From positions 1-64,000 of the forward strand of contig JAENYG010000010.1 of the NCBI GenBank assembly GCA_016841875.1: a DNA stretch of 64,000 nt, in the 5' to 3' direction. The translations under genes were made by a program, and so were the position numbers. The stretch comes from Syntrophomonas sp. Its GTDB lineage: Bacteria > Bacillota > Syntrophomonadia > Syntrophomonadales > Syntrophomonadaceae. The notes beneath the pieces were generated by a model. It was not told the origin of the DNA. It did no database searches and saw nothing but the letters and a program-made list of their open reading frames with translations. Positions 197 to 13,863 of the stretch are shown piece after piece (positions within the stretch are counted from its first letter, which is position 1; each line of letters opens with the position of its first letter).

Positions 197-245
197 TGGT
201 GCCTCGGGGCGGAGTCGAACCACCGACACGCGGATTTTCAGTCCG
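197..245 (-). repeat. attL: displaced 3' end of tRNA-Phe
   Basis: Identical over 49 bases to 13788-13836 within the intact tRNA-Phe gene, covering the anticodon 3' side, T-arm, acceptor 3' strand and CCA. At 246 the identity stops and element sequence begins. This fragment has no 5' half and cannot make a tRNA. Confidence 0.93.
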
Positions 246-358
246 ATAAAAGCCCTTTGGTCTGTTTAGGAATAATTAGGAATATCCCATAATTACTAGG
301 TTCTTTAATTTTGCCCTTTTGAATTTTTATGTCCATTTTGGGTTGCTTTTGAATTTTT

Positions 359-382
359 TGTCCCACAAAATGTACCACAAAA
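359..382 (+). promoter_or_regulatory. Candidate integrase arm-type sites, left pair
   Basis: Two tandem 12-base units, TGTCCCACAAAA and TGTACCACAAAA, lie about 115 bp inside attL. The same word recurs as a tandem pair at 13700-13722 beside attR and, inverted, at 5694-5715. Tandem short repeats flanking the core are usual arm-type binding sites of lambda-family integrases; the assignment is inference. Confidence 0.5.
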
Positions 383-437
383 TTATCGAACAATCAGTAT
401 TTTAACTCATGCCTTATTACTTGTCAAGCCAAACTAA

Positions 438-463
438 AAGGGGGCGAATTCAATTCGCCCCCT
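438..463 (-). terminator. Hairpin terminator after the leftmost element gene
   Basis: Near-perfect hairpin AAGGGGGCGAATT / AATTCGCCCCCTT, about 30 bases past the stop codon of the minus-strand gene ending at 496. It closes the element's leftward transcription before attL. Confidence 0.7.
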
Positions 464-495
464 TGGTTGTTTTATCTTCGTTCATCAAAAGCTAA

Positions 496-873
496 TTATA
501 ATACCTCCCTGGTTGCTGTAAACTCGTTATTATTGCCAATATCCATTTCATCAATTAGTTGCATTCCGTCTTTCCTTCTTTGGTTAAATGCCAACTCCTT
601 TAATTGCTCTATGCTGTCATATACATAATCACCGACAATATTGATAAATTGGGTTATTGTTGTATAATCGTAATACCAAAGTGCAGATTGCTCACCGTGT
701 TTATCTTCTTTCTGTCCTTCGCCAACTCTTATAGCGGCCCTTGGATCTGGTTTATCATGAAATGAATATTCATTAGTCCAATGATTCAATACAACCATAG
801 CCTTTTCCAGTTCGCATATTACATCTTCAACTTCCCTTTTTAATTTGTTAACTTCCATTACATTAGCTTCCAT
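496..873 (-). CDS. Hypothetical protein, 125 aa
   Basis: The start is set by GGAGGG six bases before ATG. The protein is soluble and acidic, with a helical N-terminus (residues about 1-32) and the phrase WYYDYTTITQFINIVGDY in the middle. I do not recognise a family. It is the last gene before attL and has its own terminator, so it is probably accessory cargo of the element. Nothing visible indicates its function. Confidence 0.6.
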   Translation of the reverse strand: MEANVMEVNKLKREVEDVICELEKAMVVLNHWTNEYSFHDKPDPRAAIRVGEGQKEDKHGEQSALWYYDYTTITQFINIVGDYVYDSIEQLKELAFNQRRKDGMQLIDEMDIGNNNEFTATREVL

Positions 874-1002
874 TAAAAACCCTCCATTTCTTTTACCCTT
901 GCAGGAGGTTGCTATTGCTTGCTATAATACAAGTGATAATAAACCTCCAGGGGTTTGTTGCCTGTGGAATCCGGTGTACACTGTCCAGGTGACCGGGTTC
1001 CT

Positions 1003-1170
1003 TTAGTTTTTTATACGATCTTTTAACCACTTTTCAACTTCTTCTTTGTTGTACCTAATGCTCTTCTTTTTGCCCATATAAGGCATACCGGCTTTACGCC
1101 ACCTCCAGGCCGTTGTAGTACTTATTTTAAGCCACTCACACAACTCGGCCTCCGTTATGATATCACTGAT
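1003..1170 (-). CDS. Small HTH/excisionase-like protein with apparent non-AUG start
   Basis: The frame encodes about 55 residues with the shape of an AlpA/excisionase-type winged helix: LCEWLKISTTTAWRWRKAGM, then a basic patch and KEEVEKWLKDR. There is no ATG, GTG or TTG in the frame upstream; an in-frame TAA lies just before the coding stretch. A strong site (GGGAGGG, 1177-1183) sits six bases before an ATC at 1170, with an ATA two codons further on. It may start at one of these rare codons, or have lost its start and be a remnant. The HTH identity rests on sequence pattern only. Confidence 0.5.
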   Translation of the reverse strand: MSDIITEAELCEWLKISTTTAWRWRKAGMPYMGKKKSIRYNKEEVEKWLKDRIKN

Positions 1171-1491
1171 TTAGAACCCTCCCTTCTGCTTTAATATTAG
1201 GCTTATATTGCATTACATTTCATATTATACATTTCAATACATTGCATGTCAAGGCAAAAAAAGAGCCCAGGGGCTCAACCTATTTTCCTTGGTTATTTGC
1301 TATATTAACCTTTGGTGGCAAAATATTGCCAATTTCTTTGCAAAGGCGGCCGCAAGTTTTTAGTCGGTAGTTGCCTGTCCTCCCCATTCACCCTCAATGG
1401 TGAATGCCCTCGCTGTCGATTTGCAGAGCAATTTCAATCGAGGTTTTGCCTTTCGATGATAGTCTGTAGATCGTTGAAGCCTGTCCCTCCC

Positions 1492-1677
1492 TCAAATGAT
1501 CTTCAATTCTCTCAACAACCTGTCCCGAACTATCTTGGGCTTATCGCCTATAACCTCGCTGCACCTGTCCAGGAGTTGCTTATTCTTGGCTAATGTCTTG
1601 CGATCAATTCCCAGTAGTTGAGCCGCCTTATTACGGCTCATTACCACTGGCCATTTGTTGTAAGGCTCTGGAATCAA
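1492..1677 (-). CDS. Short HTH-like protein, 61 aa, possibly frameshifted
   Basis: Residues 13-31 (MSRNKAAQLLGIDRKTLAK) look like a helix-turn-helix. The frame ends at 1492. A second frame overlaps its 3' end and runs on to a stop near 1398 with another HTH-like stretch (STIYRLSSKGKTSIEIALQI). The two may be halves of one regulator split by a frameshift or two remnants. No function beyond DNA binding can be proposed. The stretch from about 1200 to 1400 holds nothing else I can support. Confidence 0.4.
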   Translation of the reverse strand: MIPEPYNKWPVVMSRNKAAQLLGIDRKTLAKNKQLLDRCSEVIGDKPKIVRDRLLRELKII

Positions 1678-12222: not shown

Positions 12223-12355
12223 TCAAAGATTCACTCCTTTCACAAGAAATAATAAGTCTAGATAAATTATATACATGTATCAAGCAATAGTCAATACATT
12301 ATTAGCAAATATTTTTGTTTATAATCTAATTTGCACACTTTTTGCCTTTATTTGC

Positions 12356-12384
12356 TTGTTTTTTTATCGTTCTTATATTATAAT
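12356..12384 (+). promoter_or_regulatory. Probable integrase promoter
   Basis: TTGTTT at 12356-12361 and TATAAT at 12379-12384 are separated by 17 bp, about 40 bp upstream of the integrase ATG. The ribosome binding site AGGAGG lies at 12415-12420. Confidence 0.6.
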
Positions 12385-12427
12385 TGAAGACACAAAAGAG
12401 CCTGTGGTAAAAAAAGGAGGTTTAAGC

Positions 12428-13690
12428 ATGGCTTATGTTGAAAATAAGGGGCTGAATAAGAAAGGCCAGGCCGTTTTCAGAATATATATAGACGGGCCGA
12501 AGAAGCCGGACGGCAGCCGGAACCAGAAGAGGGAAACCGTCAAAATCGATCTTCCAACCCGGAAAATGAAACCGGAAGACCTTGATAAATGGATCGATAC
12601 TAAGGGTCGTGATAAGGCCATGGACCAAGCAAAGGCCCGGGAACGAGAAATAAACCAGCCAGGGTACAAGGAACCAACCAAAGAAACCTTTTCTGAACAC
12701 GTTGATCGATGGTTAAAAGTACACGGAGAAACAATCCAGCCTAAAACACTTCACCGGTATAAAGAATTATTGAATAGAATACTTCCGTACATTGGCCATG
12801 TTCCGGTCCAAGAGATCCAGATGGAACATATTGAGGATTTATATAGGGACCTTGCCAAGGAACCACGAAAAGACCGCAAAGAAGGTACTTTATCAGCAAA
12901 AACAATACAGCATCATGCCAGGGTACTGCATATTGTTCTTGAATACGCGGTAAGAAGGAAAATGATTGCATCAAACCCGGCTACATATGTTAAACCGGAA
13001 ACCCCTAAAAACAAGGCTATCGAATATTTTAACGAAGATCAGATCAAGGTGTTAATGGAGATTTTAGAGGGCGAATCCCTGACTAATAAATGTCTGGTCA
13101 ATTTAGCTATTTCAACCGGGGCACGGGCTGGAGAACTGGCAGCTTTAACATGGGATGATATTGACGAAAAGAACCGCACAATACGGATAAATAAAAGCTC
13201 CCAGTATATCCCCGGACAAGGCTGCAACTACAGCAAGGAGCCAAAAACAGAAGCCAGTAAGCGGACAGTCACCGTTTCAGCATCAATTATATTCCTTTTA
13301 AAGCAGCTTAAGGGTGAACAGGAGGCTGCAAGCAATAAGGCAAAAAATAAATGGATAAATACAAACGCCGTATTTTGCAATAATTACGGGCAATATATTC
13401 ACCCTGAATATCCTTCTCACTGGTGGCATAAATTTATTCGTCAGACGGACTTACCCAAGGTAAGTTTTCACGGTCTGCGCCATAGTTGCGCCAGCCTCTT
13501 ATTGTCTAAAGGTCAGTCAGTTCCAGCGGTAGCAAAGAGATTGGGCCATGCTAATCCGAATATAACGCTTGCAGTATATAGCCATGCCTATCAAAAAGAT
13601 GATCAGATAAATGCTGAAATTATGGACGGAATATTAAACGAAAAGAAGCCCGAGAAAAAGGCAAGAAAGAAAAGAGTAATTAGCAAGTAA
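12428..13690 (+). CDS. int: Tyrosine recombinase integrase, 420 aa
   Basis: Residues 1-75 form an arm-binding region (FRIYIDGPKKPDG), 85-185 a SAM-like core-binding domain (FSEHVDRWLKVHG), and 200-395 the catalytic domain. Catalytic residues are visible: Arg233 (TGARAGELAAL), His348 and Arg351 (HGLRHSC), His374 (LGHANPN) and Tyr384 (AVYSHAY). It catalyses integration and excision at the tRNA-Phe attachment site 100 bp downstream. The frame is open 51 codons further up, but AGGAGG seven bases before ATG 12428 decides the start. Confidence 0.95.
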   Translation: MAYVENKGLNKKGQAVFRIYIDGPKKPDGSRNQKRETVKIDLPTRKMKPEDLDKWIDTKGRDKAMDQAKAREREINQPGYKEPTKETFSEHVDRWLKVHGETIQPKTLHRYKELLNRILPYIGHVPVQEIQMEHIEDLYRDLAKEPRKDRKEGTLSAKTIQHHARVLHIVLEYAVRRKMIASNPATYVKPETPKNKAIEYFNEDQIKVLMEILEGESLTNKCLVNLAISTGARAGELAALTWDDIDEKNRTIRINKSSQYIPGQGCNYSKEPKTEASKRTVTVSASIIFLLKQLKGEQEAASNKAKNKWINTNAVFCNNYGQYIHPEYPSHWWHKFIRQTDLPKVSFHGLRHSCASLLLSKGQSVPAVAKRLGHANPNITLAVYSHAYQKDDQINAEIMDGILNEKKPEKKARKKRVISK

Positions 13691-13699
13691 TTTGCTCCA

Positions 13700-13722
13700 T
13701 GTACCACAAATGTACCACAAAA
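13700..13722 (+). promoter_or_regulatory. Candidate integrase arm-type sites, right pair
   Basis: Two tandem copies of TGTACCACAAA lie between the integrase stop and attR, matching the pair beside attL. Binding by the integrase is inferred from position and repetition. Confidence 0.5.
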
Positions 13723-13753
13723 CGAAAAACCTATACAAAAGCAGAAAATACAA

Positions 13754-13783
13754 AACCCGCCAAAGTCCGGCGGGTTCTTGTTT
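13754..13783 (+). terminator. Integrase terminator
   Basis: Hairpin AACCCGCC/GGCGGGTT with a seven-base loop, followed by CTTGTTT, just inside attR. Confidence 0.75.
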
Positions 13784-13787
13784 CTAA

Positions 13788-13863
13788 TGGTGCCTCGGGG
13801 CGGAGTCGAACCACCGACACGCGGATTTTCAGTCCGCTGCTCTACCAGCTGAGCTACCGAGGC
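13788..13863 (-). tRNA. tRNA-Phe (GAA), integration target
   Basis: A complete 76-base cloverleaf with acceptor stem GCCTCGG/CCGAGGC, anticodon loop CTGAAAA (anticodon GAA) and encoded ACCA. Its 3' 49 bases are identical to attL, so the element restored the gene on insertion. Confidence 0.96.

Follow-up and report, generated by a model that had tools for sequence, protein, structure and literature searches.

Is the 13.6-kb element inserted in a tRNA-Phe gene of Syntrophomonas sp. a prophage that lost its head genes, or a satellite that never needed them? The element lies at 196-13836 of the window, the 64,000-nucleotide stretch analysed here, which begins at the first base of contig JAENYG010000010.1 (C72) of assembly GCA_016841875.1. 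A preliminary description of this DNA had proposed a phage satellite rather than a normal prophage, and this proposal is supported by gene content, gene order and sister elements in other hosts. Based on these sequence features, the element is probably an intact phage satellite with a lifestyle like that of the phage-inducible chromosomal islands (PICIs), integrating at tRNA-Phe and relying on a tailed helper phage.

Insertion, replication and gene order

The element is flanked by exact repeats of the attachment (att) site; the exactness noted in the preliminary description was confirmed, while the length is 50 bp instead of 49 bp. A tRNA-Gly gene lies directly outside the left copy, and a tRNA-Asp gene beyond the tRNA-Phe gene on the right. 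When the two flanks were joined and used as a query, unbroken alignments were obtained with G015 (98% over 82-509), G016 (92%) and numerous further genomes in the family. These alignments represent the empty site, indicating that the element is an insertion.

All the element genes except int are transcribed from the minus strand. The tyrosine integrase expected from the preliminary description is present; its start was re-assigned from 12275 to 12428, probably the true start, in agreement with a relative from Desulfosporosinus (L030). Upon integrase query of genome contigs, one informative relative was obtained. The putative arm-type sites of the element share their motif with the end of the related L030 integrase gene, and exact TGTACCACA occurs in five copies in 64 kb, all within the element. 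Two AlpA/excisionase-type helix-turn-helix (HTH) proteins adjoin int, as in PICIs. The preliminary description had called the HTH regulators divergent, but every HTH gene is on the minus strand and only int diverges.

The element carries its own replication module as previously proposed, including a lambda-O-like initiator (4.1e-22 to Phage_rep_O), a primase-helicase and five iterons that were found nowhere else in 64 kb at up to three mismatches. The iterons are located inside the initiator gene, as they are in lambda. Relatives of the primase in viral contigs, with identity of up to 66%, belong to phages with terL (many of them, downstream), to contigs with no identifiable head gene in view, or to other head-less integrated elements; since the profiles used are narrow, an unseen head gene beside some of these relatives says little.

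The replication genes are followed by the protease gene and, 1.5 kb later, by the gene for a protein like small terminase (TerS), a gene noted in the preliminary description. Coding density is 98.9% across this replication-to-terS block (5844-11817) and 81% for the whole element, and ribosome sites are recognisable at most genes; the block is thus compact, as was claimed. Altogether, a site-specific integrase with att repeats, the HTH proteins next to int, an own replication module, and TerS in the absence of large terminase (TerL) are all features of PICI-like elements.

Prohead protease and the missing head module

In line with the preliminary description, searches with Pfam, PHROGs, NCBIfam (for ten of the proteins) and profiles made from relatives detected no gene for TerL, portal or major capsid protein in the element. 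The virion gene set is therefore incomplete, as in PICIs; the set of TerL, portal, capsid and tail genes that makes a complete prophage is not there, nor are the TerL, portal and major capsid protein of a capsid-forming PICI (cf-PICI). P4 alpha primase-helicase, Sid and Psu, which would mark a P4-like element, were not among the Pfam, PHROG and NCBIfam matches.

Such a gene set might also be left by the decay of a prophage or of a cf-PICI, in which terL, portal, capsid and most tail genes were lost and the protease, terS and fibre genes stayed as relics. The latter genes are indeed all phage-derived, the left third of the element is less densely coding than the core, and a scar may underlie the 520-bp gap at 5320-5843. 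No old att core was detected within this gap. The gene order, however, is primase-protease-coiled coil-two cold-shock-domain genes-terS, as against terL-portal-protease-capsid in the phage relatives. After deletion of terL-portal and capsid, terS would still precede the protease gene, so that the order in the element cannot result from simple prophage deletion. Moreover, the genes with homologues are full length: primase, initiator and integrase align with their relatives over most of the length, and no internal stops interrupt the protease and primase frames. We regard decay as unlikely, also in view of the sister elements described below.

The prohead protease named in the preliminary description was identified as a member of the S78 (HK97) family and retains the catalytic His, Ser and Glu region of that family. 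Residues H57, S121 and E147/E150, the putative S78 catalytic residues, are invariant between the element protease and four prophage relatives (alignment A1). The protein is of 262 aa, and its protease domain is directly followed by EIDIDSIEYVPTKKGNDQILEIEDLKITRGEFKAMLREAIE and then by a repetition of its final portion, seen at the DNA level as repeat D1. Most phage relatives, with best identity of about 50%, measure 290-550 aa, and those nearest to the element protein finish with a tail, for example EIDLDAIEYVPTPKSAAKDELNIELGVLKNMIAEII in L052. The element tail aligned with the C-termini of phage relatives L052, L081 and L065 at z of 9.1, 7.4 and 6.0, respectively, far above shuffled sequences.

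All 80 homologues of the protease in viral contigs sit in head modules: a capsid gene was found in 72 loci, and in the other eight the contig ends within 1.7 kb downstream and a portal gene is present. No other gene is common to the element and these 80 loci. The source lineage of the protease is represented by the tailed phages L050, L051, L052 and L053 (IMG/VR; about 38-51% identity and a common C-terminal tail), in which the protease gene lies between the portal and capsid genes and is the only gene common with the element. Within these cognate phages, similarity exists between the protease tail and the capsid N-terminus (z of 6.5 for L053, 4.0 for L052 and 3.7 for L051; weak in L050), which makes a role of the tail in joining the procapsid plausible.

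Apart from the element, the likeness between tail and capsid N-terminus in L051, L052 and L053 may represent a procapsid signal recruiting the protease in that phage group. In L050, L051 and L052, a long gene upstream of terL resembles, by eye, the 6-hydroxymethylpterin/flagellin-glycosylation type, and L050 and L051 also carry epimerase and sugar-synthase-like genes by the packaging module; phage-encoded surface glycosylation is possible.

As a satellite, the element may work as follows. Integration and excision would be carried out by the integrase and an excisionase-type HTH protein, and copying by the O-like initiator, the iterons and the primase-helicase, with roles judged from homology. 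A tailed helper would supply TerL, portal, capsid and tail, for which one of the L050-L053 kind is a natural guess, and the TerS of the element would steer helper TerL to element DNA. The S78 protease might enter the helper procapsid via its duplicated C-terminal tail and, once inside, alter head maturation or size in favour of the satellite. The coiled-coil protein, modelled as all-helical, may assist the protease in the procapsid and is a possible scaffold or size-determination partner; no homologue was found for it, viral contigs included, and fold searches were uninformative.

Compatible with a satellite is a variant in which the protease serves mainly as a weapon and not in the making of satellite particles: it would enter or poison the procapsid of the helper or any related phage and block its maturation, to the benefit of the host cell. 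A shortened protease with a duplicated tail would suit such a weapon, and phage elements blocking virion assembly have been described (PMC10884400). The catalytic residues, needless in a pure decoy, are however kept, and the gene is situated within a block ending in terS, like the packaging genes of satellites; this variant is possible but doubtful.

Sister elements, helper and accessory genes

Sister elements were searched for in viral contigs and in about 400 genomes sampled from the phylum. Two of them, L146 and L180 (genome G431), share with the element an int-xis-80aa-Rep-primase backbone and carry their own terS and tape measure genes without head genes. On L146, a 17.8-kb contig of which part was analysed, int, HTH, 80-aa, Rep and primase (51%) genes are followed by those for tape measure (2.5e-132), a coiled coil and TerS (1.8e-35); the 80-aa protein is a homologue of the 78-aa protein of the window, and the coiled coils of the two elements are not homologous. 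L180, about 26.8 kb as a whole and bounded by a 54-bp repeat, carries TerS (phrog_83, 5.8e-8; Pfam Terminase_4 above cutoff) and tape measure (3.7e-49). Between L146 and L180, identity is mostly 72-87% in int, xis, the 80-aa protein, Rep (over 121 aa) and primase, 59% in the gene after primase and 76% in an FtsK-like gene, while their TerS and tape measure proteins belong to different families. Kindred backbones with swapped terS cassettes, and never with a head module, fit satellites adapting to helpers and not the independent decay of prophages; such head-less elements recur in other hosts.

The FtsK/TcpA-like gene (379 aa, 76% identical) lies downstream of the terS/tape-measure cassettes (L146:13800-14939 and L180:18282-19421) and is directly followed in G431 by a replication-relaxation-type gene (L181:93-782). 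Conjugation-type genes may thus be joined to a phage-satellite backbone in L146 and L180.

A third sister, L182:2134-14113 (genome G233), is a complete 11.9-kb element at tRNA-Lys with an exact 50-bp att repeat. It carries int, Rep, primase (32%) and an ArpU-like regulator, and no TerS, packaging or phage structural gene was recognised in it. That this backbone occurs without TerS or structural genes, and that the FtsK/TcpA-like gene points to possible conjugative transfer in some members of the family, would agree with an integrative element which no longer uses phages and in which captured phage genes serve other ends. Against this stand the TerS and the intact-looking head protease of the element, and the lack of relaxase or FtsK-like genes among its recognised proteins; we consider it very improbable.

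The satellite reading may be extended, with rather less than even confidence, to a family in which one int-xis-80aa-Rep-primase backbone is combined with swappable cassettes of terS and a single helper-matched virion-assembly protein. This protein would be the tape measure in L146 and L180 and, in the present element, the head protease with duplicated tail, which would take over helper head maturation.

A copy of the element with terL, portal and capsid genes, the finding that would have spoken for a deletion, was looked for in genomes and viral contigs and not found. The 63 genomes of the family and order searched with the protease contained no close copy, nor did some 400 genomes of the phylum or the 2.9 million viral contigs searched by protease, TerS, coiled coil or integrase.

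Several observations weigh against a helper-dependent satellite. No helper with a matching head was found in the genome: it contains two detected prophage regions, of which that on C59 has a ClpP-like head protease and that on C14 none recognised, and no other S78 gene. The only gene common to the element and these prophages is the initiator, with a 33% match to that of C14. None of the sister elements carries the protease. The short form of the protease, with a single tail (301 aa), occurs in the complete phage module of L051, so that a shortened protease alone is not a satellite signature, and its candidacy as a satellite hallmark is weakened. The likeness of the element tail to capsid N-termini is marginal (p about 0.03). 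The TerS assignment is moderate and its structural model poor, phBC6A51 and Sf6 gp1 ranking first but not significantly. Among the element genes, none was recognised as a known type of capsid-size gene or as a master repressor of the CI/Stl type, all the HTH proteins being small (Pfam, PHROGs); for want of such a repressor the element is classified as PICI-like and not as a Gram-positive PICI proper.

The remaining genes are listed in Table 1. The fibre/lectin and membrane proteins are probably accessory, serving receptor binding and superinfection exclusion. The tail-fibre-like protein shows 49.5% identity to a putative tail fibre over 108 aa; an origin of its gene from a resident prophage was considered and set aside, as no match was found elsewhere in the genome. 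The non-coding gap at 5320-5843, in the middle of the element, carries three copies of GTTGACCAGT (5431, 5603 and 5615) and an inverted TGTACCACA pair (5695 and 5707). A PADLOC search for defence genes yielded only a generic cold-shock domain.

Table 1. Features of the tRNA-Phe element, in window coordinates
Feature	Position	Strand	Basis
att repeat, left copy (attR), 3' part of tRNA-Phe	196-245		exact match to 13787-13836
Putative integrase arm-type site pair (TGTcCCACAAAAT, TGTACCACAAAAT)	359-383	+	exact TGTACCACA copies
125-aa protein, no assigned function	496-873	-	open reading frame with ribosome site
Small HTH_17 protein, 46 aa	1003-1143	-	Pfam HTH_17 1.3e-7
Small HTH protein, 61 aa, weak	1492-1677	-	HTH_8 0.002
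Membrane-anchored accessory protein, superinfection-exclusion-like N-terminus	1942-2601	-	phrog_8263 5e-23; phrog_4980 superinfection exclusion 3e-8
LamG/ConA-like lectin protein	2944-3666	-	PF13385 2.5e-17
Tail-fibre-like protein	3680-4465	-	phrog_9017 tail fiber 1.2e-16
Possible fibre-associated protein	4453-4959	-	weak PHROG matches; no phage match
66-aa Cys-rich small protein	5114-5314	-	49% match over 39 aa, next to a primase in another genome (L015)
Non-coding gap, candidate pac/cos or regulatory region	5320-5843		repeats
TerS-like small terminase protein	5844-6254	-	phrog_2538 6e-9; phrog_7344 4e-8; weak fold ranking
Divergent cold-shock-domain-like protein	6248-6553	-	PF00313 0.037
Zinc-ribbon and cold-shock domain protein	6556-6936	-	PF00313 4e-20
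260-aa long helical coiled-coil protein	6933-7715	-	predicted all-helical, predicted local distance difference test (pLDDT) 83
S78 prohead protease, duplicated C-terminal tail (7743-7820/7830-7907)	7723-8511	-	PF04586 2.7e-6; phrog_80 5e-18; alignment
71-aa protein, no assigned function	8517-8732	-	open reading frame with strong ribosome site
Primase-helicase	8751-10526	-	phrog_239 3e-95
Lambda-O-like replication initiator	10538-11344	-	PF04492 (Phage_rep_O) ~4e-22
Five iterons TTACCGTTTTGGTAAG, putative origin within initiator gene	10880-10984	+	repeat search
78-aa backbone protein	11344-11580	-	matches in L146, L180, L182
Excisionase-type HTH protein	11602-11817	-	HTH_17 4.6e-6; excisionase PHROG 3.5e-5
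HTH_17 regulator/excisionase-type protein	11965-12222	-	HTH_17 8e-8
Tyrosine integrase	12428-13690	+	PF00589 1.6e-28; strong ribosome site
Second pair of putative integrase arm-type sites	13700-13723	+	motif search
att repeat, right copy, inside intact tRNA-Phe 13788-13863 (minus)	13787-13836		repeat; empty site of relatives

Comparison with known satellites

Known routes of capsid theft are scaffold mimics (CpmB of the Staphylococcus aureus pathogenicity islands, SaPIs), external scaffolds (P4 Sid, PLE TcaP) and own heads (cf-PICI). A satellite head protease taking over helper head maturation was not found in the open-licence literature searched, an absence that is not proof, and no satellite report for these hosts was found in the literature searched. 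If the present reading is true, a satellite equipped with just TerS and a head protease would attack virion assembly at a new point, and sisters that keep the backbone and swap terS and tape measure would let helper specificity be read from sequence.

In SaPIs, the replication genes are followed by capsid-altering genes and then by terS. The element has the same layout, with the protease and coiled-coil genes in the position of cpmAB. It also resembles PICIs and SaPIs in int with an excisionase/AlpA-type HTH protein, an own initiator and primase, TerS ending a packaging-type block, the absence of TerL, portal and capsid genes, and a size of about 14 kb. It differs in having a head protease and coiled coil in place of SaPI cpmAB/ppi, a lambda-O-like initiator, and no recognised Stl-type repressor. 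SaPI1 CpmB binds the capsid protein via a C-terminal RIIK motif common to the helper scaffold (PMC5644958).

With cf-PICIs the element has in common int, HTH, primase, TerS and a head maturation protease. The cf-PICIs encode, however, a whole head set of capsid, protease, portal, connectors, both terminase subunits and HNH (PMC10690885), of which the element has TerS and protease only.

The PLEs of Vibrio cholerae, PLE11 above all, are alike in that a satellite adds its own virion component to the helper particle; tape-measure genes are found in the sisters L146 and L180. PLE11 (2026) is the first satellite described with its own tape measure and builds chimeric tails, and some cf-PICIs carry putative tape measures (PMC12987554). 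Unlike the element, PLEs have a different integrase and replication, and PLE11 adds a tape measure and baseplate hub, and no protease (PMC12987554).

In P2, protease and scaffold reside on a single protein (PMC6893505), which is the kind of target proposed here. The P4 satellite likewise redirects head assembly, but by the external scaffold Sid, whereas neither Sid nor Psu was recognised in the element.

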